Source: a virus. From it: 21,054 bases of DNA. The notes under the pieces are model-generated. The model was not told where the DNA came from and made no database searches. It saw nothing but the letters and a program-made list of their open reading frames with translations. Location: IMG/VR virus record IMGVR_UViG_3300005435_000060, positions 1-21,054 of that record; one strand, given 5' to 3'. Position numbers and translations under genes: made by a program. Positions 213 through 19,812 of the stretch are shown piece after piece; position 1 is the first letter of the stretch, and every line of letters starts with the position of its first letter.

Positions 213-473
213 TCAGACTGGCTCGTTTACTACTACGGATGGAACGACAACCATCTTGTAAAGTCCACCGTTCTCATCCACAATGTCTTGCATAGCCTGT
301 TCGTATGCAAGACTCTGATCTGCTTCGGACAGTTCGTCTGATGTTCTTACCACACGACCCAGATACGCCAGCGTATTGTAGCCAGCTGCTTGATCCCAGA
401 TGTTCCACTCATTGTATTGAGTCACTGGATCGAATGGGTTGTCCACTGTGGTAAGCATGTGTTCATCTGTCAT
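213..473 (-). CDS. Small acidic phage protein, function unknown (86 aa)
   Basis: The start ATG overlaps the stop of the upstream RNA-polymerase-like gene as ATGA (470-473), so the two are probably translationally coupled and this is the last gene of the operon. The protein is acidic and has no membrane segment. It reads as mostly helical, with a Trp/Tyr-rich N-terminal half (EWNIWDQAAGYNTLAYLGR) followed by a helix rich in Glu and Asp. I do not recognise a domain with known function. It resembles small conserved proteins I associate with actinophage genomes, but that is from memory. A role as an accessory factor to the polymerase encoded immediately upstream is plausible from the coupling alone and is not shown by the sequence. 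Confidence 0.8.
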   Translation of the reverse strand: MTDEHMLTTVDNPFDPVTQYNEWNIWDQAAGYNTLAYLGRVVRTSDELSEADQSLAYEQAMQDIVDENGGLYKMVVVPSVVVNEPV

Positions 474-3136
474 GCATCACCTTCAGTAAGACTACGTTTC
501 AGGGTCGTGACAGAAACGCCAAGCTGTTCGGCGACCTGTGCTTGAGTGTAACCGTTCTGAAGCATTGTGATGGCACGGCGCATTCCGTTGACATCCAACT
601 TCTGACGAGACTTCGGTGTTGCCAGTTGCTTAATGGCATCGAGGTCTGCGTTGTTCAAGATCTGCGTCAACTTGTGGTTAGTGATAGCGCCGGCCTGAAT
701 GGCGGCCCATTCATCGTCCGTGATTTCGATACGGGTCTTCTTAGCCCCGGTACGAAGACGGGCTTCAGTTAGGGCCTGTGCTTTGAGCTTCTTGATGTCC
801 GACGGTTCCAGATCTGGGTTGGCTTGAATTTTCTGCCTAATCACAGTGTTCGCTATGATCTGCGCCTGACGTTCCAACGGACTGTTCCTCAATGCCAGAT
901 TAAGCTTGGCTTCGAGGGACTTGACTTGATCTGCGTACTTGGCTTTCGCTTCAGGCGAATACGAGATAGGCTTGATGTTGCTGGCTTCAAGCCTGGCTTT
1001 GTTTGCCAGACCTTTCAGCGTATTCGAGTGATCCGCGTAGATCTTCTCGATAGGTGTTCCAGACGACAAGGTATGTGCGTTGTTGGTTTCGGCCAAACGC
1101 TTTGACTTGAATGTGCGAGGAACTTCTTTGCCATAGCGGTTGGTGAATGTCGCGCCGGTGGGAACGAATACTTTCTCGCCGGTCTTCTTGTCGATCGGTC
1201 CGCCCTCGGATACAGGACGAGGCTTTCTTTCAGGAACATGCACTTCTGCACCAGCTCTCGAGATGAGAGTCGATGCGCCAGCGTTCTTCCTACCTTGATA
1301 CTTCTCTTTGAGCTTGGGGATGCCATTGTCGATCGCCGATCGTTTCCAATCGAGACCGTGTTTCTCAGCATCGATCACAACCATGGAGTGTCGAACTGCT
1401 GCAGCTAGCTCGGATGCGGAAGCTCCACGAATCGTCATGTCGGTGATGAGATTCGAAACTATACCCATCTCGACTTGTTTGGTTCTGGCACTCATCTTGG
1501 TCATACCTTCATAGCCAGGATAAGCACGCTGAGGATCGAAACCCTTAAGACCTTCGAGTGCGGGTGCTGTCTTGATTGATCGGTTGTTGTTCGGGATTAC
1601 CAGAACCGTGTCACCGTCGAAGTCTGCACCAGACAAGCGAGCAGCAACCTTACTGTGGATACCAATCGCATCTTTGGCATTAGTTCCAATCAGCTTCTTC
1701 GCATCCGGATGGTTGTTGTTGACCGTGAGTTCTGGAATCTCGAAGATACCGCCGTGTGGATAGCGAACGAGAACAACCCTTTCGCCATTACGGAAGTTCG
1801 GTGCGTATACTTCCGTTTCTTTCATCGTGTTAACCGGTAGTATGACGTGTGAGCCTTGACGTGGCAAAGCTGCAGCCTTCAGATGAACAGCCGAAGAATC
1901 AGCGTCATCAGCAAAGGAATCAAGAAGCTTCTTTCTGACGGCGGGGTTGTCGAGAGCTTTGATTTCGTCGAACTCTCGCATCTTCCGCTCAGCAGCCATT
2001 TCAAGTTGCTTCTGAGCGAGCTTAGGACTCTGCTTAGATAGCATCTGAGAAGACAACGTCTTCGACCACTTTTCCCAATCACCTTCCTCGTTGACGAGGT
2101 TCATGACTGAGGTGAGCTTCTTCTTCCCATCACTACCGATTTCGCCAATCTGCCGTTTGATCACAGCTCCAAATGGAGTGTCTGGATCGTCTTTCATTGG
2201 CTTCATGGCGTCGAGTTTGTTTCCGGTTGACTTCTTGTTCGTGTTGAACATGATGTCGGTACCAGCGGGCAGACCATCTTTGTACATGGCCATACCCTTG
2301 AGGTAGTGCGTTCCGTCAACAGCTACACGAACTTGGGCATACCTTGCACCACCCAACGATACGTCCTTGACTCCAGGACGAACGTAGATGACTCCGTCGG
2401 CGTCTGCGCCCCCCTCTTCTGCATAACGCACCGAAACGCGCTTAGAATCGATCGAGAGGGGCGGCATAATACGATCGTAGGATCGCCCGCCATCTTCGGA
2501 GTAGTTCGTGATCTGTTTGATGTTCCCACGATTCCGATAAACTTCGGAGTACGGGGTATCGGGTGCAGCCAAGACCTTGATGGTGGTCTTCTTTCCAGTC
2601 CCCAACTGTTCAACGTGAACATAGTGAACTGTGTAGCCCTCTTCTTGCAGCCGAGCCACAGCCGTGCTCAACTTAGTGGAACTGATTGCCAAGTGATGCT
2701 CGACGCCGCTTCCGATGTCGATGTAGCCCTTTTCAGCTACCTGCTCTTTGAGCATATTCGACGTAGCCTCGAGGATATCGGCCTTATCTTTCTCACCTGG
2801 AGCCAACAGCGCACGTACCGAAGACTCGTTCAACCCCATACGCTTGCCGATGGCTACGTTTGAGTATCCCTTGTCCTTTAGGCGTTGAGCCATGTTGATC
2901 TGAGCCTGCTTCTCAGCATTCTTAGCGATCGATCTGGCAGCGCGAAGTTCCGTTGTGGTGAGATTGAAACCTTTAGCAATTTCGGTTTCGCTGAGTCCCT
3001 GCTTACGAAGATCGTCCACCACTCCCAGGAAAGTGCGATTCCGCTCTTCCTGTGTCTTGCCGGATCCCCACGGGTATCGACCCGATCTACGAAGAATACC
3101 GTAGTGAGCCAACCATTCTTGCTCATCGAATTCCAC
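470..3136 (-). CDS. YonO-like single-chain RNA polymerase (DFDGD) with terminal HTH motifs
   Basis: The 888-residue product contains LSGADFDGDTVLVIP, with DFDGD at about residues 505-509. This is the metal-binding signature shared by the bacterial RNA polymerase beta-prime subunit, eukaryotic RNA-dependent RNA polymerases such as QDE-1, and the phage SPbeta polymerase YonO. Around it are a double-psi-barrel-like stretch (about 425-505, with RYPHGG near 458-463) and a conserved helix after it (MGIVSNLITDM). The length is close to that of YonO-type enzymes. Unusually, two helix-turn-helix-like segments lie at the N terminus (about 45-70 and 88-112) and one at the C terminus (about 862-883, with QAQVAEQLGVSVTTLKRSL). 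The start was set at GTG 3134-3136 because GGGGGAGG lies 8 bases upstream; the GTG at 3143-3145 overlaps that site and has no spacing. It is probably the phage's own transcriptase for a later gene class, which is inference. An alternative is a template-independent or RNA-copying enzyme. Confidence 0.8.
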   Translation of the reverse strand: MEFDEQEWLAHYGILRRSGRYPWGSGKTQEERNRTFLGVVDDLRKQGLSETEIAKGFNLTTTELRAARSIAKNAEKQAQINMAQRLKDKGYSNVAIGKRMGLNESSVRALLAPGEKDKADILEATSNMLKEQVAEKGYIDIGSGVEHHLAISSTKLSTAVARLQEEGYTVHYVHVEQLGTGKKTTIKVLAAPDTPYSEVYRNRGNIKQITNYSEDGGRSYDRIMPPLSIDSKRVSVRYAEEGGADADGVIYVRPGVKDVSLGGARYAQVRVAVDGTHYLKGMAMYKDGLPAGTDIMFNTNKKSTGNKLDAMKPMKDDPDTPFGAVIKRQIGEIGSDGKKKLTSVMNLVNEEGDWEKWSKTLSSQMLSKQSPKLAQKQLEMAAERKMREFDEIKALDNPAVRKKLLDSFADDADSSAVHLKAAALPRQGSHVILPVNTMKETEVYAPNFRNGERVVLVRYPHGGIFEIPELTVNNNHPDAKKLIGTNAKDAIGIHSKVAARLSGADFDGDTVLVIPNNNRSIKTAPALEGLKGFDPQRAYPGYEGMTKMSARTKQVEMGIVSNLITDMTIRGASASELAAAVRHSMVVIDAEKHGLDWKRSAIDNGIPKLKEKYQGRKNAGASTLISRAGAEVHVPERKPRPVSEGGPIDKKTGEKVFVPTGATFTNRYGKEVPRTFKSKRLAETNNAHTLSSGTPIEKIYADHSNTLKGLANKARLEASNIKPISYSPEAKAKYADQVKSLEAKLNLALRNSPLERQAQIIANTVIRQKIQANPDLEPSDIKKLKAQALTEARLRTGAKKTRIEITDDEWAAIQAGAITNHKLTQILNNADLDAIKQLATPKSRQKLDVNGMRRAITMLQNGYTQAQVAEQLGVSVTTLKRSLTEGDA

Positions 3137-3151
3137 GGACGACACCTCCCC

Positions 3152-3712
3152 CTAGACTAGCTCGTCTTGCTTCCACGCTTCGATTCGCTTGTCGAAGGTG
3201 ATTATCTTGTCCATGATGTGAACGATGACATCGGGATCGGCTTCGTAGATTCGAACTTCATCGTTCTGGTAGATTCGAAGTTCCGTTTCGATCTCGTGTG
3301 GCTTAACGAGGTACTCAAGGCAGAAGAGTGCTGCGTAAACCTCGAGTTGATGCTCAGAGGATCTAGTTACACCGTTCTTGAGATCGTGAATCCGGAGCTT
3401 ACCCTTTCGGAACGAGATCGTGTCTGCAGTTCCATAACAGTTCGGCGAGTAGAACAGAATTTGTTCAGGAACCATCTTGAAACCGATAGCATCGTTCACG
3501 TACAGGTTAATCGTCACAGGAGCGTCAGGGAGCTTCACACCGAGCCTGATAAGGTCGTAGGCCAGTTGATGCATCTCGACGCCTCTACGGGCCGCCTGTG
3601 ACGTCCTGAAGGCATGCTCGAGCTTGTCGTCTGTGTAATTGATCCAGTGATAGTTACTGGCGCCGAGGAACGCATGAGTTCCGGCAAGATTCGAATGCCT
3701 GTTGAAGAGCAC
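3152..3712 (-). CDS. PD-(D/E)XK nuclease, RecB/Cas4-like
   Basis: This 186-residue protein shows the ordered motifs of the RecB/Cas4-type PD-(D/E)XK nucleases: RGVEMHQL (43-50, with the N-terminal His), YGTAD (93-97, metal-binding Asp97), IHDLKNG (108-114, Asp110 and Lys112 of the D-x-K core) and EHQLEVYAALF (120-130, the Q-xxx-Y motif). All active-site residues are present, so it should be an active single-strand or end-processing DNase. Start GTG 3712 is chosen because GGAGGAA lies 7 bases upstream. The gene overlaps the VRR-NUC gene by 59 bases and is followed directly by the RNA-polymerase-like gene. Phage relatives work with replication helicases and primases in recombination-dependent replication. 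A Cas4-like iron-sulphur cluster is not evident, since the typical C-terminal cysteine cluster is absent. Confidence 0.82.
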   Translation of the reverse strand: MLFNRHSNLAGTHAFLGASNYHWINYTDDKLEHAFRTSQAARRGVEMHQLAYDLIRLGVKLPDAPVTINLYVNDAIGFKMVPEQILFYSPNCYGTADTISFRKGKLRIHDLKNGVTRSSEHQLEVYAALFCLEYLVKPHEIETELRIYQNDEVRIYEADPDVIVHIMDKIITFDKRIEAWKQDELV

Positions 3713-3974
3713 TCAGAACTTCCTCCGCATTAGAAGGGTAGATAAGCGCGGCGAAGGACATCTCATTAAGTTGTTCGATGTAGTAATCCTGGTTCGGGCG
3801 CTTTGAAGCTTTGGCGTCCTTCTTGACCTCTAGCATGGCCCAACACGGTCCCCAGAATATCACGAGGTCCAGAATGCCTTGCATGTAGTTGGGGTCGTTC
3901 TTCAGGATGACACACTCAGGGAACATCTCGCGAAGACGCTTAATCAGCTTCGGCTGAAAGTCTCTTTCTAACAT
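3654..3974 (-). CDS. VRR-NUC domain nuclease
   Basis: This is a compact 106-residue VRR-NUC (PD-(D/E)XK superfamily) protein. Visible motifs are an N-terminal helix (ERDFQPKLIKRLREMFP), QGILDLVIF (32-40, with Asp36 in the place of the family's G-x-P-D Asp), MLEVKK (47-52, the E-x-K core with Glu49 and Lys51) and Gln68 in the following helix. Stand-alone phage VRR-NUC proteins are thought to cleave branched DNA such as Holliday junctions or to assist SF2 helicases, and an SF2 helicase is encoded two genes upstream. Start ATG 3974 has a modest GAAGG about 10 bases upstream. The 3' end overlaps the next nuclease gene, so two PD-(D/E)XK nucleases are expressed from overlapping frames. Confidence 0.82.
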   Translation of the reverse strand: MLERDFQPKLIKRLREMFPECVILKNDPNYMQGILDLVIFWGPCWAMLEVKKDAKASKRPNQDYYIEQLNEMSFAALIYPSNAEEVLSALQQAFESCRNSCVPRRQ

Positions 3975-4025: not shown

Positions 4026-4559
4026 TCATATGCTGCGATTGCGACGCGACCTAATATCTGTGTAACCGTCGATCAGCCGAAAGTGTTGCTTAGTCGGCCA
4101 GACCTCGGTTTGTTCCATCGCCGCAATCAACACGGACGTGGCAAGCAACCCGTACTTGAAGGCTGCCTCCCAATGACTGTAAAACTTCTTACCTGTTTCC
4201 ATCTCTTGGACTGGGCGTTCTACTGCCAGTGAAGGTTCATCGAATTGGCGGAAGTACTTGGTCGCGAACCATCTCGGGCGCCAAGCGAGATTCCAGACGT
4301 TGTTGTTGAGCCGATCACCGTTGAGGTTTATCGGTGTATCGAACGAATCGTGGATGCGAAACTCGAGGAATGCATTAGCGACCAGAAGAGCCACCGATCG
4401 CTTGTACTGCTTGCACTTCTTGGTCAGTCCGACATTGACTACTCCGGACTGGTTAACCAACAGCGTCAGCACTCGGCCAGTCTCGTCGTTTCGGACGTAA
4501 CCGGTTTCGCTGACGGAGTAACCCGGGAAGGACGGTATCGGGCGCCACTCAGTTGGCAT
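4026..4559 (-). CDS. NUMOD4/HNH-type protein with degenerate HNH core
   Basis: The 177-residue protein starts with a NUMOD4 motif (TEWRPIPSFPGYSVSETGYV, residues 3-22), continues into an HNH_3-like region (ALLVANAF 57-64, then PINLNGDRLNNNVWNLAW 76-93) and ends in a NUMOD1-like DNA-binding segment (PVQEMETGKKFYSHWEAA, 116-133). Active homing-type HNH enzymes carry H-x-D-G-D-R-x-N-N in the central motif. Here the His and first Asp positions are Asn78 and Asn80, so nuclease activity is doubtful while the DNA-binding parts look intact. Start ATG 4559 puts NUMOD4 at the N terminus, as is usual. A longer frame starting TTG 4676 would read through the inverted repeat and has no ribosome binding site. 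It may be a decayed homing endonuclease or a repurposed DNA-binding protein, possibly acting on the adjacent repeats. Confidence 0.72.
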   Translation of the reverse strand: MPTEWRPIPSFPGYSVSETGYVRNDETGRVLTLLVNQSGVVNVGLTKKCKQYKRSVALLVANAFLEFRIHDSFDTPINLNGDRLNNNVWNLAWRPRWFATKYFRQFDEPSLAVERPVQEMETGKKFYSHWEAAFKYGLLATSVLIAAMEQTEVWPTKQHFRLIDGYTDIRSRRNRSI

Positions 4560-4649
4560 TAAGGTTTCGCTCGCTTTCCTTGATGCAAGGAAGCTATACA
4601 ACTGGTGCACAAAGGACGCCGCTGATCGGATTAGGACAGAACGACTCCC

Positions 4650-4765
4650 CTTGTCAAATGTCAAATCTGAAACCAAAAACTTTTTATTATTGCAATCCTA
4701 ATATCTATAGATATTGGAACTTCCGTGAAAGGGTTATTTTTCAAAAAGATTTGACATTTGACAAG
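4650..4765. other. Candidate replication origin or operator: symmetric dyad
   Basis: Two perfect 19-bp inverted arms, CTTGTCAAATGTCAAATCT at 4650-4668 and its reverse complement at 4747-4765, flank an AT-rich core. The core contains the perfect 16-bp palindrome AATATCTATAGATATT at 4700-4715. The arms and the central palindrome share exactly the same centre (4707.5). Each arm holds two TGTCAAA units 7 bp apart. The DNA between is not otherwise symmetric, so the common centre is unlikely to be a by-product of one long hairpin. Iterated sites around an AT-rich element fit an origin bound by an initiator. A bidirectional operator is the alternative. Confidence 0.6.
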
Positions 4766-4965
4766 ATCGGGGCGACAAAACGGACATAATTACGGAGTCG
4801 AGGCTGCGATCAGCTGTTTTTCACAAGATCATCGTTGTCAAATCCGTTGTCAAATCCATGATCGCTTGTCAAATATTTGACATATGATCATGAACGACTC
4901 GGACATAACACCTAGATCAGACACCCGCTGTCAGATCCGTTTCAGATTTGACAGAGGATTTGACA
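4652..4965. repeat. TGTCAAA/TTTGACA iteron-like array (10 copies)
   Basis: Exact copies of TGTCAAA lie at 4652, 4659, 4836, 4848 and 4867 (first base). Copies of the inverse, TTTGACA, lie at 4750, 4757, 4876, 4947 and 4959. GTTGTCAAATCC is repeated in tandem at 4834-4845 and 4846-4857. TGTCAAATATTTGACA (4867-4882) is a perfect 16-bp palindrome. GATTTGACAG occurs at 4945-4954 and 4957-4966, again 12 bp apart, inside the last codons of the SF2 helicase gene. A degenerate TGTCAGA lies at 4929-4935. Two further 9-bp direct repeats, GAACGACTC (4639, 4892) and CGGACATAA (4781, 4900), occur in the same stretch. The non-coding part (4560-4916) has no gene. Confidence 0.8.
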
Positions 4966-6131
4966 GTCCTCGAACGAAGAAATTCGGCTTCGTTGAAGCT
5001 CTTTTTCCCCCGAAGGCACTTCATCACAGCTTGATCGATCGCCGAATCCGAGAGTAAAACGTAGTAGTAAAGATCCCAGAATGGGGTGTTTAGTCGATCA
5101 ATCCGTCCGAATGCCTGATGCCAGTTTTTGTACGAATATGTCAGCGAGTAGAAAACCTCCGCATTAGTGCTCGTACAGTTCCATCCCTCCGATCCGGCGA
5201 CGTACTGAACCAGGTACAGCCACCGATCGGTCTCTGGGATTTCCTCGTGTTTGTGACCGTTCCACTCCGCAATCGTTACTTCTTCGGCGAGCTGTCGCAA
5301 AGCTTTCAGCTCATAATCGAAGTTGTAGAACACGATCAACCGCGGATGTTTAACCATCAAATTCCGAACCATCTCGAGGCGCGACGGGTCCGAATTAACT
5401 ACTTTGCGTGCTACGTAGAACAACTCTGAAACGTTTCTGATCGGTCGATCCTCATAGACGTGCCATCGATCCTTGAACACCCGGTCGCGTAAGGTGCTGT
5501 CGTGATCGACGTGAAGCGTCTTAGTATGACGGATCGTGTGACGCTCATAGGGCATGTGTACCAACAACTGATTCCGTAATCGCACGAGTTTTCCGACGTT
5601 CGTGTAGCGGTCGATCTTCGGAAATTTTGTATACGTGTTGTAGACTACGTGATCGCGCTTGAACTCCGTTCTATTTTGATAGAAGCCATTCGCGATGAAG
5701 ACCGGGACGTAATCCATCCAGGTGTCACCAGGTGTTGCACTGACAAGAATCCAGTTATTGCGCTTGGCGATGAATTCGAAGCTTCTCACCCATGCGCCAC
5801 TACCTACAAGGCGTTGCTCGTCGAAGATGAAGAACGCGCCCTTGACGTTCTTGTACTTCGCTATGTTGTTCCAAGAATCCACCCTTAGAACGCCAGCCAC
5901 GGTCGCGTCTTTGCTTTTGTACACGCCGTATTTGACGAACTCTCGCTCCCAATCAAGGGAATCGCGCTTCTTGGCGGTGGTAATGACATAGACGTCCTTC
6001 GGCGCTTCCTTCTCCATATAATAGGCTGCTGCCGTGAGCGACTTGCCAGTCCCGACCCCGCCCCAGAGAATTTTCCCGTTGCTTAGGCGGTCTACTGCTG
6101 TCCTCTGGTGTGGGTACAGGTCCACTACCAT
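4917..6131 (-). CDS. SF2 DNA helicase (phage DEXH/SNF2-like)
   Basis: The 404-residue protein has a complete SF2 motif set: YPHQRTAV (6-13), Walker A GGVGTGKS (24-31), motif II FDEQ (103-106), motif III SATP (131-134), motif IV LIVFYNF (265-271), motif V VAGSEGWN (311-318) and motif [13 protein letters not shown] (338-348). The arrangement matches the short phage helicases that accompany replication primases and polymerases. They are ATP-driven DNA translocases used in replication or recombination. Motif II is DEQ-R rather than DEAH/DEAD. Start ATG 6131 follows GGAGAAG closely. The last 50 bases of the gene carry two GATTTGACAG units of the repeat array, so the C-terminal tail may be constrained by a DNA site. 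A VRR-NUC gene lies two genes downstream, a common pairing in phages. Confidence 0.88.
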
Positions 6132-6145
6132 GACTTCTCCAGTTG

Positions 6146-6760
6146 TTAGGCTGCGTCACCCGTGGGGTGAGTGAACGCAGTCTTGAGTGAGTCGAGTAAG
6201 GTCTCTATGAAGTTTTGTATCTTGCTGAGGCTTTCGCCGGGGACACGGCGAGGAAGCCTTCTGAGAGGCCTGACACCACTCCTAGGTGGTACAGGTGTGG
6301 TTGCGTCGCTGAGGTCCCTTACAGGGCTGTCAGGCGCCGTAGGAGCTCCATCAGACGAACCTTCAACAGAGTCCTCCGAGGTATCTCCAGAGCCACCGGA
6401 ACCCCCTTCAGGATGCCCAGTGACATCGCCACTCCCTGAATCTTCCTCACACTCTCCGGTGTCGCCTTGCTCTGCAGTCTCAGGATTATCAAATCCGGAT
6501 TCTGTCTCGACTTCGGCTCGTTCTGTACCGGAATCATGTTGTAGTACCTCCTCCTCACCATCGCCGTCCTCTCCGAAGTAAAGCGTCCAGCCACGGCCGG
6601 TGTCGCCGTTCTTGAGCGGCTGCACGTCCTTCAAGGGTATACATGCCACCAGCCCCCATACGAACCTCGTAGGACCGATCAGGAGGTCCTGGTAGTACTT
6701 GTTCTCTCCGCTTTTCTCATACTCCTCGACAAGTTTGTCGAATATCGGTGTTGTATCCAT
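6146..6760 (-). CDS. Protein with N-terminal domain and long acidic Gly/Ser linker
   Basis: Not recognised. From ATG 6760 it is 204 residues: a folded-looking N-terminal domain of about 65 residues (with [20 protein letters not shown]), a very acidic Gly/Ser/Asp/Glu linker (about 66-135), a basic Pro/Arg patch ([13 protein letters not shown]) and a C-terminal amphipathic helix ([17 protein letters not shown]). A flexible acidic linker with a terminal helix suggests a tethering or recruitment protein, perhaps for replication proteins. It lies 14 bases before the SF2 helicase start. The start is uncertain. GTG 6850 has CTGAGG 6 bases upstream and would add 30 residues, whereas ATG 6760 has only a weak site but a more natural N terminus. 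If ATG is right, 6761-6858 is non-coding and contains a GGGGCG/CGCCCC stem. Confidence 0.72.
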
Positions 6761-6858
6761 GATGTTCCAATCTCTAGCGAACAGAGAGCCAGTAGGATAG
6801 GGGCGCAGATACTCCCTTGCCCCACGCCCCAAATCCCACTGGGAACACACAATCAACC

Positions 6859-10162: not shown

Positions 10163-13100
10163 CTACTTGACGAAGTCGGCGAAATTCCCGAACTTCTCGA
10201 TAGTCTTCATCGCCTCGTCCACCAAGACTTCGTAGTAGCTGAGATCCACGATATCCGTAAGCAGACCGTCACCATTCACCGAGAAGACCATGTCCTGAAA
10301 CGTGAGTTCGTCGGACACCTCGATGTGGAGTGCTTTGACCATATCGGCTTCGAGCCATAGATAACCCTTGGTTCCGCTGACGGCATACGGCTTTTCGTCC
10401 CGAACCACAACGAGCTTGGCACCACCGGTCGACTTGAGGACCGGCACGAACAAGCCTGTACGTCCCACAAAGTGCATGCCCTTGTAGGGTGTGGCCGGCG
10501 TTGCCTCGGATTCATTGAAGTCGAGGTACATGGCCGAAGGTGCCTTGACCTGCTTGGTCTCGCACAAATCTGCGAAGGTGATCGGCTCCTCGCTGAACAG
10601 TGCCTTGAAGACCACCGGGTGCTGGAATTGAGCACCGACGGCATCCCATTTGGATCCAGCACGAGCGATGTAGACCGCTTCGTTCACGAGGCAGAACTTG
10701 TCATAGGTCTTCTCGTGCTCGAAGTCGTAGCCGTACCGCTTACCGAACTCCGTGATGAAATCGATGATCTCCGGTGTGGCATTGGGGATCTTGATCGAGT
10801 CCGTCTTGATGTGGACCACCTGGAACCCGCGCTCCTGCACTGCGTGCTTCAGGTCGATCATGAACAGAGCACCGCGCTTGGCGACGATGTTATCCTTGTT
10901 CCGAGGATCACGAAACGGGTTGTCGAAGCTGGCCGAAGTCAGACCGTAGACGATGTTGATCGCCAATTTGAGCGCGAGAGATAGTTCTGCTGCAGCCTCA
11001 GGCGTTCCAAGATAAGGCTCGAGGGCGCCTCCCAGCATGGATCGCGCTGTATCGTAATCCTTGCGCTTGATCGCGAGACGCACGTCCGTGAGAGCATTGA
11101 AATTCTTCGTGTAAGGACCAAACACATCCAATACACGAATCGAAGTCGGATGCATTGAAGCCACATCCAGAACCGCCACATCAGTGTACATCCCTGGCTC
11201 TGCATAAACATATCCTCCTTCCCCGACCTCTTCGCCCCGATATGTGCTCTTTCCGAAGTCATATACATACCCCGGGAATTCCTGGTTCAGATCGGTATAG
11301 ACGAACCGCTCCTGCGGATTCCGATCCTTGCCAAACACGATCCTCGCAGTGTGCTTCTGCGTGGTGTCGTTGACAGTCAGTCCACTCAGCTCCGCCAGAA
11401 TCTGCCGAGCCACGAAATCCTGCCGCCGCGCATCGAATGTAGCCTCGGTGGCGATGACGTCGTTGACGCAGTACTCGACAACCTTGGGCCAGAACTCTTC
11501 GGGAACCGGCTCATCCCACGGCATATCGAGCTCCATGTGGTGGAGGCCCAGTTCGATTTCGTACTTCTTCAAACTCTGCTTCTTCGAAGTGAAATCGTAG
11601 ATGTCGGTGTACGACAGGCTGTAGGCCTCGCCGAACATCGCACCCTGATTGCCGCTGATGATCTTCTTCGAGAGCTCATAGAGCTGTTGGTTGTTGTAGC
11701 CCATGAAGGCCGCCCAGAGGATATGGTTGTCATACCTCCGATTGTTGAAGCCGACCAGCTTGAACTGCATGAGCCCTTCGATTTCCTTGGGGCTCGGGTT
11801 GATCATCCGGATGACGATGTCGTCCTTCTCGTACTTCCAGCACACGACGAAGAGGTTGGGGAACACCTCGATGTCGAAGAAGATGATCGGGTCATCCTTG
11901 CGCGGCGTGGTGGGCGTGTCTTCCACTGTGACGTCCGATTTGAACTTCATCCTCTGGACCGTCTTGAGGCAGACGAGCGCATGGTTGCTGCTGTTATTAG
12001 CAAAAGCCATAATTTTCGGGCGAAGGTCCGTAACGTCATAGACCATGCCCGACTCGTTCGCGTCCTCGAGGATCTTCCAGATGAAGTCGATCGACGGTTT
12101 GGTACCGGGGTGGATCTCCTTCCTCAGGTTTCTGGCGATCAGTTCCCGAAGGCCCTTCTCGCTTTGAAGTACCTTGGGCTCGATCATCGGCTTTCTCTCC
12201 TTGAAAGGGAGCCCACTGCTTATCGTGGCGACTGCCACGTTATTGCACTTACTCAGCCTTCGTCGGAGAGAGCTGTTTCCAGTGAAGACTTTGATCTCGA
12301 TTCCAGGAGAATACTCTTTAGCGAGATCGGCCGGTTCTCCATCGTAAATATAGTGGAGATGAACACCGCCCCCAGACTTACTGAGTTCGGCGTAGGTGGC
12401 GGGCCAAGCACTTGCCGCCTCAAGATTTCGTTCGAGTACCTTGTGTCCATGCTCGTTCTTCAAATCGAAATCGATGACGATATGGTTCTCAGGCAGCTTA
12501 ACGAAATGGACACGAGAGGTATCCAAGTCGCTCAGGATTGTCGTACAGACCTGATCTGGGCGAGGTTTCTGCATAACGCCGTTGATCGGACGTTCTTCGC
12601 GATCCCAGTACTTCTCAGGGGTTTCGTCTTCCTTGCCATATTGAGCTGGCAAGTCTGCGCACATCTGGTCCAGGATGGATGTGGTTTCATCCAAGACCAG
12701 GGAGAAAGTCTTGGAATCCTGCTCCAATGGGACCTTGAACGGTTGAGCGACGAAGCCCTTGTAATAGCTTCGAACCGAGACTCCGTCCACTACAGAGCGA
12801 TCCAAGAATTCGTTGAAATAGTTCTTGAGCTCTTCGCGGAACTTGTACTGAGGCAGTTTGAACTCGAGAGAAGCCTCGGCGCAGTATTCCTTGTAGAGCT
12901 CCCACGCCTGCTTGAGCGTCGCACCGTCCTGTGCCTTGAAGATGTCGTAGTACGCCTCGATGAAGTTGAAGAACACATCTGTCTGCAACATCATGTCGAG
13001 TGGGCGATAAGTATTGTAGTAGTTTTTGCCCATCTCCCGGTAGACCTCGAGGCAGTGATGCGCGATAGCGCCCAGCTCGAAGTCGATCTGCGACATCAGC

Positions 13101-14023
13101 GAGAAGTAGTGATTCGCCTCCAGTCGCTTGCCGGTCGGCTTGACGTCGATCAGACGTCGGATGAGACCGGACTTGGCGTCGGTGATCTTCACCGGCTTGT
13201 TGGTGCCCATGAAGAGAAATGCGTTGATCCGTGATGTGTAGCCCGGCTTGTACTTCTCGTTGATAGTCATGTCCTCGTGGGACACGATCGAATTCAGTTT
13301 GCTGTTGTCCTCGATGCGAGACAGATCGCCGTCGTGCTGGATTGCGACGAGTGGATTGCTCTTGAACGCCTCGGTCGCGAAGGAGTTGTTGTTTCCGACG
13401 AGAGCCTTAGCCTCGAATGTGGTGCAGTACCCCTCGAAGAGTTTCTGCACGATGTTGAGGATTGTCGATTTACCGGTACCACCGGGGCCGTAGAAGACCA
13501 GGAACTTTTGGATTTTTTTGGAGTCCCCAGAAACCACGGCCCCGATAGCCCATTCAATCTTCGCTCGCTCCTCGGCATCGTACAGGGTAGATGTGATCTC
13601 ATCCCATGCAGGATGAGGGCCGGGAGCAAGAGAATATGGAAGTCGACGGCTGATATAATCCGTCTTCTTGACTTCTGTGTTTGCAAACGCCAGCTTCGCG
13701 TCAAGCTCGTGCGAGTTGTCGCTGACGTTTTTCATGAACGTTTTGAACTGCTTCCAAGTGTTGGTGGTAAATGAGCCAAGGATCTTAACCGTACACGAAA
13801 TTCCGTCGGCTCTGAGCTTGTCCGCGTGCTCGTTTAGAGCCTTGTCAACGAGATCTACCACGCGGTATTCATCCGTAGACCAGAGACCAGCTTCCTCGTC
13901 CCATATTCCGTAGAACGATTGAGCGCGAATCATGAGATCCTGGGATCTGCAGACGGTGAAATCGGGGAATACGCTGAGCACGCCACCCCGCTTCTCTTCC
14001 GTGCGGATTTTAAAGAAATCCAT
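10163..14023 (-). CDS. Helicase-primase-polymerase fusion: D5/SF3 helicase, AEP-like domain, family B DNA polymerase
   Basis: A 1286-residue replication protein. Residues 30-70 look like a D5_N domain (FYGIWDEEAGLWSTDEYRVV). The SF3 helicase follows: Walker A GPGGTGKST (179-187), the B region LVAIQHDGD (225-233), motif C MGTNKP (272-277) and arginines 289-290. Next comes a primase-like (AEP) domain with IDFD (517-520), SGGGVHLHY (550-558) and GIEIKVF (574-580). The 3'-5' exonuclease motifs are FFDIEVFP (715-722, Asp717 and Glu719), GFNNRRYD (758-765) and YCVND (851-855). Family B palm motifs are DVASMHPTS (953-961), KLAINIVYG (1019-1027) and IKTDS (1072-1076). Departures from consensus are His958 where most family B enzymes have the Tyr of SLYPS, and Lys1073 replacing the first Asp of DTDS. 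Start ATG 14023 follows AAAGGAGGG. The protein should unwind, prime and copy phage DNA. The order helicase then AEP then polymerase differs from AEP-helicase PrimPols. Confidence 0.9.
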   Translation of the reverse strand: MDFFKIRTEEKRGGVLSVFPDFTVCRSQDLMIRAQSFYGIWDEEAGLWSTDEYRVVDLVDKALNEHADKLRADGISCTVKILGSFTTNTWKQFKTFMKNVSDNSHELDAKLAFANTEVKKTDYISRRLPYSLAPGPHPAWDEITSTLYDAEERAKIEWAIGAVVSGDSKKIQKFLVFYGPGGTGKSTILNIVQKLFEGYCTTFEAKALVGNNNSFATEAFKSNPLVAIQHDGDLSRIEDNSKLNSIVSHEDMTINEKYKPGYTSRINAFLFMGTNKPVKITDAKSGLIRRLIDVKPTGKRLEANHYFSLMSQIDFELGAIAHHCLEVYREMGKNYYNTYRPLDMMLQTDVFFNFIEAYYDIFKAQDGATLKQAWELYKEYCAEASLEFKLPQYKFREELKNYFNEFLDRSVVDGVSVRSYYKGFVAQPFKVPLEQDSKTFSLVLDETTSILDQMCADLPAQYGKEDETPEKYWDREERPINGVMQKPRPDQVCTTILSDLDTSRVHFVKLPENHIVIDFDLKNEHGHKVLERNLEAASAWPATYAELSKSGGGVHLHYIYDGEPADLAKEYSPGIEIKVFTGNSSLRRRLSKCNNVAVATISSGLPFKERKPMIEPKVLQSEKGLRELIARNLRKEIHPGTKPSIDFIWKILEDANESGMVYDVTDLRPKIMAFANNSSNHALVCLKTVQRMKFKSDVTVEDTPTTPRKDDPIIFFDIEVFPNLFVVCWKYEKDDIVIRMINPSPKEIEGLMQFKLVGFNNRRYDNHILWAAFMGYNNQQLYELSKKIISGNQGAMFGEAYSLSYTDIYDFTSKKQSLKKYEIELGLHHMELDMPWDEPVPEEFWPKVVEYCVNDVIATEATFDARRQDFVARQILAELSGLTVNDTTQKHTARIVFGKDRNPQERFVYTDLNQEFPGYVYDFGKSTYRGEEVGEGGYVYAEPGMYTDVAVLDVASMHPTSIRVLDVFGPYTKNFNALTDVRLAIKRKDYDTARSMLGGALEPYLGTPEAAAELSLALKLAINIVYGLTSASFDNPFRDPRNKDNIVAKRGALFMIDLKHAVQERGFQVVHIKTDSIKIPNATPEIIDFITEFGKRYGYDFEHEKTYDKFCLVNEAVYIARAGSKWDAVGAQFQHPVVFKALFSEEPITFADLCETKQVKAPSAMYLDFNESEATPATPYKGMHFVGRTGLFVPVLKSTGGAKLVVVRDEKPYAVSGTKGYLWLEADMVKALHIEVSDELTFQDMVFSVNGDGLLTDIVDLSYYEVLVDEAMKTIEKFGNFADFVK

Positions 14024-15284: not shown

Positions 15285-16202
15285 TCACACCTTCCGAGGA
15301 AGCAGGTCGTACACGATCCCGTCGACATTGAAGTCGAGCACCACCGACCTCTCGTTGCCATTCACGAACTGCATGGCCATGAAGCTGTCGCCGTGGAAGA
15401 TGCCGAAGTCGACGTAACCGTCGCCACCCTGCGCGCCCTTGACCCAACCGACGACCTGCCCCGCCTGACTCTTCTCGAGCCCGAGCATCTCGTAGACGTC
15501 GTTCAGGAACAGGAAGCCGTCGGCGTTCAGCTTGTCGTTCGCATAGTTTTGCTGGGACTGCAGGAACATCTGGTTGTACATCGGCGTGCGCTGCCAGTGC
15601 CGACTGCTCTCGTCGAAGATCCGGGCGTAGACCGAGCCGAGTTTGCTCGACGGAAGACCCTTCACCGTCTTGACGTCGGTCCCGTGATCCGTGTCGACGG
15701 CGATCTCACGGTCGACCAGACCGAAACGGAACTCCTCGTCCTTCTCGTTCCCGTACTCCTTGATGACTCGCTGACGGTACTCGCGGAAACCCTTGTCGAG
15801 CGCCGCGTACGCCGCGGTGATGGCCGCGTTCCGGCGAGATAGGATGATGTGCGACCCGCTCAGCGCAGCGACGGAGATCACGCCACACACGAATGCCGGG
15901 GCATACAGCTTGGCGATCTTCAGGCCCGTCTTGGCCCGGTTGAGCGCAGTGTCCTTCTTGGCGTCCTCCTCCGTGTACTCGGCGGAGTCCAGAGCCTGAG
16001 CGTCCTCGATCTGCTGCTTGTTCTTCTCGGCCTCGCCGAGGACTTCCTCCATCTTGAGCGTGGCCCGGCTTGCGAGGACCACGGTGGTGACGACACCGAC
16101 AACTCCGACACCGAAGAGCAGCGTGGGTGAGTTCTTACGCGTGACCAGGATCTGCCGTCCCACCCCGGACGTGACCTTATTCTTGATGGCCGTGAAGCCC
16201 AT
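15285..16202 (-). CDS. Two-pass membrane protein, DUF6353-like, copy A
   Basis: A 305-residue protein with two hydrophobic segments, SPTLLFGVGVVGVVTTVVLAS (about 25-45) and APAFVCGVISVAALSGSHII (about 101-120), separated by a charged helical region. Next comes RRNAAITAAYAALDKGFREYRQRVI and a C-terminal soluble domain of about 160 residues ending in a strand-rich part (ERSVVLDFNVDGIVYDLL). The architecture and the A-x-x-A-Y-x-x-x-x-x-x-F-R-E-Y motif match the protein at 19042-19812, a paralogue in the same window. I recall this family as DUF6353, of unknown function. The topology would place the C-terminal domain on the cytoplasmic side. Start ATG 16202 has AAGGAG 6 bases upstream. Confidence 0.8.
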   Translation of the reverse strand: MGFTAIKNKVTSGVGRQILVTRKNSPTLLFGVGVVGVVTTVVLASRATLKMEEVLGEAEKNKQQIEDAQALDSAEYTEEDAKKDTALNRAKTGLKIAKLYAPAFVCGVISVAALSGSHIILSRRNAAITAAYAALDKGFREYRQRVIKEYGNEKDEEFRFGLVDREIAVDTDHGTDVKTVKGLPSSKLGSVYARIFDESSRHWQRTPMYNQMFLQSQQNYANDKLNADGFLFLNDVYEMLGLEKSQAGQVVGWVKGAQGGDGYVDFGIFHGDSFMAMQFVNGNERSVVLDFNVDGIVYDLLPRKV

Positions 16203-19041: not shown

Positions 19042-19812
19042 TCAACTGTAGACGGAGAAGTATCCCCGTCCAGGAGTTGTCTGGAAATTGATCGTGATGC
19101 ACGGACGGCCGTCGGGGGTCATGGCCGTGGAGTACTCGATCTCGAGCCCGGTGTCGGTGTTCCAACCGATCTCATCGGATTCCGCTGTCTTCGGGAGACC
19201 GATTAGGTCCCAGAGGTCGCTGAGTGATGCGTAACTATCGTGGATGATCCGATAGTTGATATCGTTCTGCGCCTTCTTCAAACCCTCCAAGGTGGAGTTG
19301 AAGTATCGACCAGAATGCATGTCGAGGCAGAGCGCTTCCCCGCCACCGAAGACGATGATCTCGGCCGGGGGATTCTTGTTGACGCGATCCTGGGCGATCT
19401 CGTCTCGAACAGCCTGCTCCTTCTTCTCGCCCAGTTTGGTGACGACCTTGTCCTTGTACTCCCGGAATGCTTCCTGGGATAGAGAATAGGCCGAAGCCAG
19501 AGCGGCAGCACGTCGCGTGTGGATGCGATTGGCGGCGATGATGCATGCGAACGTGGTGATGCCGGTTCCGACTGCAGGAACGTACAGAAGCCAGGTCAGT
19601 TCGACCTTCTGCTTCGGAGTCAACTCGACGGGTTCATCCTCGAGGTCGAGCTTCTCCTGTTCGATCCTCAGGACTTCGGCGGCCTTGAATGTGGCCTGTC
19701 CTGTGAGAATCGCTGTGGTCACCAGACCCGTCGCTCCGACAGCGGTCAGGATCATGGGTGTGTTGTCGGCAGTAGCCTTGCGCGCCTTGGCGATCATGGC
19801 GCCGAAATTCAT
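19042..19812 (-). CDS. Two-pass membrane protein, DUF6353-like, copy B
   Basis: A 256-residue paralogue of the protein at 15285-16202. It has an N-terminal helix, a first hydrophobic segment (PMILTAVGATGLVTTAILTG, about 19-38), a charged loop, a second hydrophobic segment (YVPAVGTGITTFACIIAA, about 77-94), RRAAALASAYSLSQEAFREY and a C-terminal domain with ALCLDMHSGRYFNSTLEGL and SYASLSDLWDLIGLP. The F-R-E-Y motif after the second membrane segment and the D-L-x-D-L-I-G-L element parallel VYEMLGL in copy A. The function is unknown. Start ATG 19812 has GGGAG 7 bases upstream, 2 bases beyond the stop of the anchored protein gene. Confidence 0.8.
   Translation of the reverse strand: MNFGAMIAKARKATADNTPMILTAVGATGLVTTAILTGQATFKAAEVLRIEQEKLDLEDEPVELTPKQKVELTWLLYVPAVGTGITTFACIIAANRIHTRRAAALASAYSLSQEAFREYKDKVVTKLGEKKEQAVRDEIAQDRVNKNPPAEIIVFGGGEALCLDMHSGRYFNSTLEGLKKAQNDINYRIIHDSYASLSDLWDLIGLPKTAESDEIGWNTDTGLEIEYSTAMTPDGRPCITINFQTTPGRGYFSVYS

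Follow-up and report, generated by a model that had tools for sequence, protein, structure and literature searches.

An iteron-flanked, AT-rich dyad as a candidate replication origin in tailed phages encoding an SF3 helicase-primase-family B polymerase fusion

Genes and features of the locus

The window analysed here is the entire IMG/VR virus fragment IMGVR_UViG_3300005435_000060 (21,054 nt), the recognisable genes of which lie on the minus strand. Along that strand, these are a fusion of an SF3 helicase, a Prim-Pol-like primase and a family B polymerase (10163–14023), which is the proposed initiator and has a winged helix after its ATPase domain, at about residues 350–424; an SF2-type DNA helicase (4917–6131), the upstream neighbour of a cluster of short repeats; the cluster itself; a catalytically degenerate, conserved NUMOD4-HNH protein (4026–4559); a VRR-Nuc-type nuclease (3654–3974), found in the gene block after the cluster in most relatives; a Cas4/RecB-like exonuclease (3152–3712); and, as a co-occurring gene, a single-chain RNA polymerase (470–3145) with a DFDGD motif and a terminal HTH. 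The HNH start was assigned to the ATG at 4559, and not to an upstream TTG at 4676 that would reach the left arm described below, because the relatives begin MxxEWRxI. Relatives of the 470–3145 product are annotated as RNA-dependent RNA polymerase or HTH protein; its DFDGD motif points to a DNA-dependent, single-chain RNA polymerase of the YonO type.

Elsewhere in the window, two probable membrane proteins (15285–16202 and 19042–19812) look mutually paralogous, and the former has three matching copies in MT835485 (L141). The protein encoded at 6146–6856 contains a long acidic, Gly/Ser-rich low-complexity stretch, and has no detectable relatives in the compared phages.

Anatomy of the repeat cluster

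Between the helicase and HNH genes lies a 116-bp dyad. Its left arm (4650–4668, plus strand), CTTGTCAAATGTCAAATCT, consists of two tandem TGTCAAAT sites 7 bp apart, and its right arm (4747–4765, minus strand) is the exact inverse, the two being complementary at 19/19 positions with 78 nt between them; the same arms are found in relatives. The unstranded AT-rich core that they enclose (4669–4746) is a probable DNA unwinding element with an aligned counterpart in relatives; the 80 bp of lowest stability in the window, placed at 4675–4754 by a nearest-neighbour stability scan, lie mostly inside it. At the exact dyad centre is a 16-bp palindrome, AATATCTATAGATATT (4700–4715, unstranded), which shares with the arms the single centre 4707.5, and the spacer from palindrome to arms is non-symmetric, pairing at only 11/31 positions. 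The initial annotation had described two perfect 19-bp inverted arms, a palindrome on their common centre and an asymmetric spacer; all of this proved right to the base.

When the 21-kb window was subjected to 100 first-order Markov shuffles, a single shuffle gave a comparable inverted repeat (within 300 bp) as long as 18 bp, and the other 99 gave none above 15 bp. On this result, and on the shuffles and cross-genome arm pairings of relatives given below, chance was rejected as an explanation. In near-identical IMG/VR copies (94–99.9% over kilobases) the 116 bp are unchanged.

The dyad had been annotated as the whole feature, an extent that proved too small, as it forms only part of a cluster occupying 4650–4965. 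Each strand of the window has five copies of the heptamer TTTGACA/TGTCAAA, and all ten fall within 4652–4965, against an expectation of 2.0 per window and 0.03 per 315 bp. A second, helicase-proximal set at 4836–4965 comprises two outer groups: one at 4836–4882 on both strands, with TGTCAAA at 4836, 4848 and 4867 (plus) and at 4876 (minus), and an unstranded one at 4926–4965, overlapping the 3′ end of the helicase gene, with exact TTTGACA at 4947 and 4959, within the last codons of the ORF, and a near match, TGTCAGAT, in the 4930 region. Outside the arms there is also a second conserved element, roughly CGTCGCAAGATGTCCG or the CGGACA inverse, at 4770–4800 and 4600–4640 of the window and in many relatives, L092, L094 and L093 among them.

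Conservation among relatives

The relatives of the window are complete phages of Streptomyces (Bingvirus, Rimavirus, Scapunavirus), Gordonia, Rhodococcus, Arthrobacter and others. Comparison was made with 80 IMG/VR helicase loci and with named phages, the region behind the helicase being scanned for over-represented words. Many relatives have a lineage-specific word cluster in this region, with nearly none of the words in the rest of each locus. The typical layout is two tandem sites 7–8 bp apart, an AT-rich core of ~75–110 bp and two tandem sites in reverse order, with an outer array in addition. The word is TGTCAAAT in the window, AACTGACA in L026, TGCCAAAT in Rainydai, AGACACTT in L037, TTGCCAAG in L058, TGCCACTT in DrGrey, Psst2, Scarif, L048 and L049, and TGACTAAT in Bing. 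Word replacement between lineages is not complete, as most words, set in one frame, have a common TGYCA heart within the core motif TGYCANNT, the letters of which shift together between lineages. Bing and pSt2402 provide a close comparison: their proteins are mostly 87–97% identical and the gap spacers are conserved, with site letters that differ in concert. Such concerted change with fixed spacers is the signature expected of protein-binding sites that have to match a single partner.

A perfect 14-bp inverted repeat at 55–140 bp spacing occurs in 33/80 regions and in 0/400 shuffles, the former count including some outer-array dyads as well as core-flanking arms. When the comparison was restricted to arms on either side of the 60 bp richest in AT, a within-genome match of at least 13/14 was found in 24/85 genomes, compared with 12/400 cross-genome arm pairings. 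The central symmetry also recurs: in no fewer than 14 relatives, the midpoint of a palindrome (half-length of at least 5) is at most 1 bp from that of the arms. TATCTATAGATA is kept in many relatives, and the right half of the palindrome, AGATACC, is kept more widely, often surviving the loss of TATCTATAGATA. The layout extends to distant relatives, and the coincidence of centres is not peculiar to the window phage.

In Gordonia phage Perkunas and Rhodococcus phage ReqiPepy6, the cluster lies between the helicase and HNH genes. In Arthrobacter phages Gordon, Lewando and JEGGS and Microbacterium phage Camille, the gap behind the helicase contains no cluster; one of the same layout, built from TGCCCACTT or GTGGCCA words, immediately precedes the VRR-Nuc, exonuclease and RNA polymerase genes, and in the annotated records of these four phages the HNH gene is not at its border. 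The cluster of Curtobacterium phage JoyLin is found between an HNH gene and VRR-Nuc; its perfect inverted arms (CGTGGCCAGAAAGGGTTTTCAAACTCTTAAAA; L142, 17980–18150) surround an AT core and, at ~32 bp, are longer than those of the window. Faecalibacterium phage FP_oengus has the layout in the gap preceding its Cas4-RNA polymerase genes. In Lactococcus phages, an AT-rich core surrounded by TTCGGGA words immediately precedes the RNA polymerase gene of 1706, and CCCGGATTTT words surround an AT-rich stretch in P092. Words and AT content allowed both clusters to be identified by eye; their arms failed the automatic arm test. Since the layout is present in phages of all these hosts, the module is common to phages of Actinomycetota and Bacillota. 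The fecal contig MT835485, taken as a test of independence from the RNA polymerase, showed no clear cluster in the part examined.

Complete genomes allow confinement to be assessed genome-wide. All seven exact AAGTGGCA sites of the 56-kb DrGrey genome fall at 50950–51303, a span of ~350 bp, and six of the seven TGACTAA sites of Bing at 51183–51537. Nearest-neighbour stability scanning of both genomes places their least stable 80 bp in the core (DrGrey 51209; Bing 51429).

Candidate site-binding proteins

The first 480 residues of the fusion are predicted to fold as an SF3 ATPase followed by a winged helix. The closest solved structure to the SF3 part is the SaPI5 primase-helicase 7ola (Foldseek E 1.7e-11; VIA Z 22.4, 371 aligned, rmsd 4.7), followed by poxvirus D5/E5 and AsfvPrimPol, with E1 also having a related fold, and tblastn matches the fusion to P4 alpha (E 3e-7). 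The fusion was found in 269 phage records, from host groups that are largely those of the helicase, and is present in phages of 8/8 host genera showing the layout; on plasmids, relatives of the helicase amounted to three weak matches only. Some relatives encode, upstream of the fusion, a small ORF of about 150–260 aa matching two separate SF3 ATPase pieces, an apparent truncated SF3 ATPase paralogue (Bing gp60, Rainydai gp53, and contigs L132/L135, L130, L131 and L116).

With the other proteins accounted for, relatives that differ more in the fusion also tend to differ more in the site word (partial r 0.24, 4/1000 permutations). Residues 341–420, the winged helix, are among the higher-correlating windows of the fusion, other windows of which correlate too, and the exonuclease shows an equally high correlation with the site word (0.30). 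Coevolution of word and fusion may be indicated weakly, as a lead only, one example being position 402 of the winged-helix recognition helix, which is Asp in Bing and His in pSt2402. Two proteins had initially been put forward as the binder, the D5/SF3 fusion and the degenerate HNH protein. The former is favoured, having a SaPI5-like fold with a winged helix after the ATPase domain, and may be the cognate binder.

The HNH protein is modelled by AlphaFold at pLDDT 92 and resembles I-HmuI (1u3e; Foldseek E 6e-10, profile E 1.6e-9). Within the VDHKDG motif of I-HmuI, the Asp-His before the DG turn provides the catalytic metal ligand and general base. Both the window protein and the family consensus have Ile-Asn at these positions (PINLDG), some members keeping His at the second, which bears out the degeneracy noted from the window alone, and the NUMOD4-HNH family looks like a domesticated, non-cutting homing endonuclease. 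A whole family of such proteins, lacking the catalytic residues, adjoins the putative origin.

Interpretation and alternative explanations

We favour the reading, at a probability of roughly three in four, that 4650–4965 is a phage replication origin of the iteron/AT-rich type, melted by the SF3 part of the fusion. Computation establishes how the cluster is built, that it is conserved and occupies a single place per genome, that its duplex stability is low and that the fusion has an initiator-type fold; the origin reading is supported because the geometry is conserved in distant relatives, the sites of complete genomes are essentially restricted to this place and nowhere is the genome less stable than in the core. 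In the proposed mechanism, a phage protein would bind the paired TGYCANNT sites that flank the core in opposite orientations, most likely the SF3 part of the fusion via its winged-helix domain. The bound sites would place SF3 hexamers, or the helicase, on each side, facing the palindrome-centred core, which would then melt, allowing forks to start there, while the outer array probably raises the local initiator concentration or regulates loading. A bidirectional start is suggested by the symmetry alone. The origin first proposed for this dyad has thus gained comparative support from geometry, confinement and the weak core, with the function, the binder and the bidirectionality still to be read as inference.

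Several results count against an origin. The arms are weak or undetectable in some relatives; the cluster lies ~5 kb from the SF3 gene; and it almost always precedes a gene block whose last member encodes the RNA polymerase, a position that also fits a control region. GC skew, suggested at the outset as a check, and AT skew show no turn at the cluster in the window, DrGrey or Bing, and are uninformative here because the genes are co-directional. A packaging site was considered and set aside, the cluster being internal and the relative GoblinVoyage having 3′ sticky ends (PMC11385150).

The main rival is an operator or promoter region, in which the sites would bind a regulator (the HNH protein, the HTH of the RNA polymerase, or another) controlling the HNH-nuclease-exonuclease-RNA polymerase block. 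The gap lies directly upstream of this block or of the polymerase gene in phages of Streptomyces, Gordonia, Rhodococcus, Arthrobacter, Microbacterium, Curtobacterium and Faecalibacterium and in Lactococcus 1706, transcription passes through the cluster, and there is a 9/12 sigma-70-like match, albeit one per strand only. However, the gene that follows the cluster varies (HNH, VRR-Nuc, a nuclease-side ORF or RNA polymerase), with a small ORF and endolysin coming first in P092; the sites are absent from the other promoters of the complete DrGrey and Bing genomes; and a regulatory array leaves unexplained why a symmetric core should be the weakest DNA of the genome. The TTGACA within the window's word was rejected as a −35 box, as the word becomes TGCCACTT, TGACTAAT and others in relatives with the same geometry. 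We regard a purely regulatory role as unlikely, and origin and operator functions could coincide.

Should the binder be the degenerate HNH protein, a domesticated homing endonuclease would have become a site-specific origin or operator protein. Its position beside the cluster in Streptomyces, Gordonia and Rhodococcus phages, its confident resemblance to the DNA-binding I-HmuI and its consistent lack of the catalytic pair all fit such a role, but it is not at the cluster border in Lewando, Gordon, Camille, JEGGS, FP_oengus, Lactococcus 1706 or P092, which excludes it as a required binder. Furthermore, near-identical HNH proteins accompany different words (Bing and pSt2402 at 91% identity, and L021 likewise), and HNH distance is unrelated to word distance (partial r 0.02). 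The HNH protein, one of the two initiators first suggested, is therefore disfavoured, and a binding role of this kind seems very improbable. Hardly any weight can be given to the remaining explanation, that the arms act by base pairing, whether as a stem-loop of the transcribed RNA or as a cruciform extruded from the DNA. The transcribed strand does fold better than shuffles (z −4.7), but in many relatives pairing is limited to 7–8 bp per site across a 75-nt loop, arm numbers can be unequal (two sites and one in DrGrey), and the word is also present in the outer array, which forms no long stem; Rfam gave only a below-threshold microRNA-family match (26.5 bits, with 83 required).

The origin reading can be extended, tentatively and with the odds somewhat against it, to one clade-wide origin type of Actinomycetota and Bacillota tailed phages, in which a single SF3-primase-PolB polypeptide would recognise paired iterons to either side of the core, melt that core, prime and polymerise, and the rapidly drifting words may set replication compatibility during co-infection. 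The open-access literature searched contained no origin published for these phages. If the cluster is an origin, it provides a compact, conserved and testable candidate for a group of about 250–270 sequenced phages, and the fused replicase could be studied biochemically on this region as a small, defined substrate.

Comparison with known systems

The SF3 ATPase fold relates the fusion to proteins of the papillomaviruses (E1), poxviruses (D5/E5) and asfarviruses (AsfvPrimPol), and the SV40 and papilloma origins contain inverted pairs of short sites. In these viral systems, however, the sites are packed within a few bp, and there is no sequence relation to the window DNA. P4 alpha, likewise an SF3 primase-helicase initiator, is similar in sequence to the fusion but has a different domain order. 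P4 replication combines iteron recognition with AT-rich melting, and requires a second, distant site, crr.

The window's word also recalls the TGTCAAG-like core of Cluster A-type stoperators, such as 5′-TGTCTATTGTCAAG in Rhodococcus cluster CA phages (PMC13313380). Stoperators of Cluster A actinophages are dispersed through the genome in one orientation, whereas the window sites form a single cluster in both orientations; with 7/7 sites of DrGrey inside 350 bp, and 6/7 of Bing similarly grouped, a stoperator or repressor array was rejected.

The closest parallel is with the SaPI/PICI origins, which 'always' comprise two iteron sets flanking an AT-rich region (PMC6092414). Both have opposed sets of short iterons around AT-rich DNA of comparable length, words that differ from element to element, and an SF3 primase-helicase encoded by the same replicon, that of the window having a fold closest to SaPI5. 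They differ in that the PICI origin is immediately 3′ of rep, whereas here the SF3 gene ends at 10163 and the cluster begins at 4965, after the SF2 helicase; in the SF3 part being here the N-terminus of a fusion with primase and family B polymerase; and in the centred palindrome of the core. PICIs are helper-dependent satellites, whereas the relatives of the window are complete phages with head, tail and terminase genes, one of which, Scarif, has been described as strictly virulent (PMC11536984). The cluster thus resembles a PICI origin in anatomy and initiator fold, yet is not a PICI. In 2018, the PICI-type layout was said to be absent from other known bacterial replicons (PMC6092414); if the origin reading is true, this layout extends to tailed phages with a fused helicase-primase-polymerase, and bears on the sharing of replication modules between satellites and phages.
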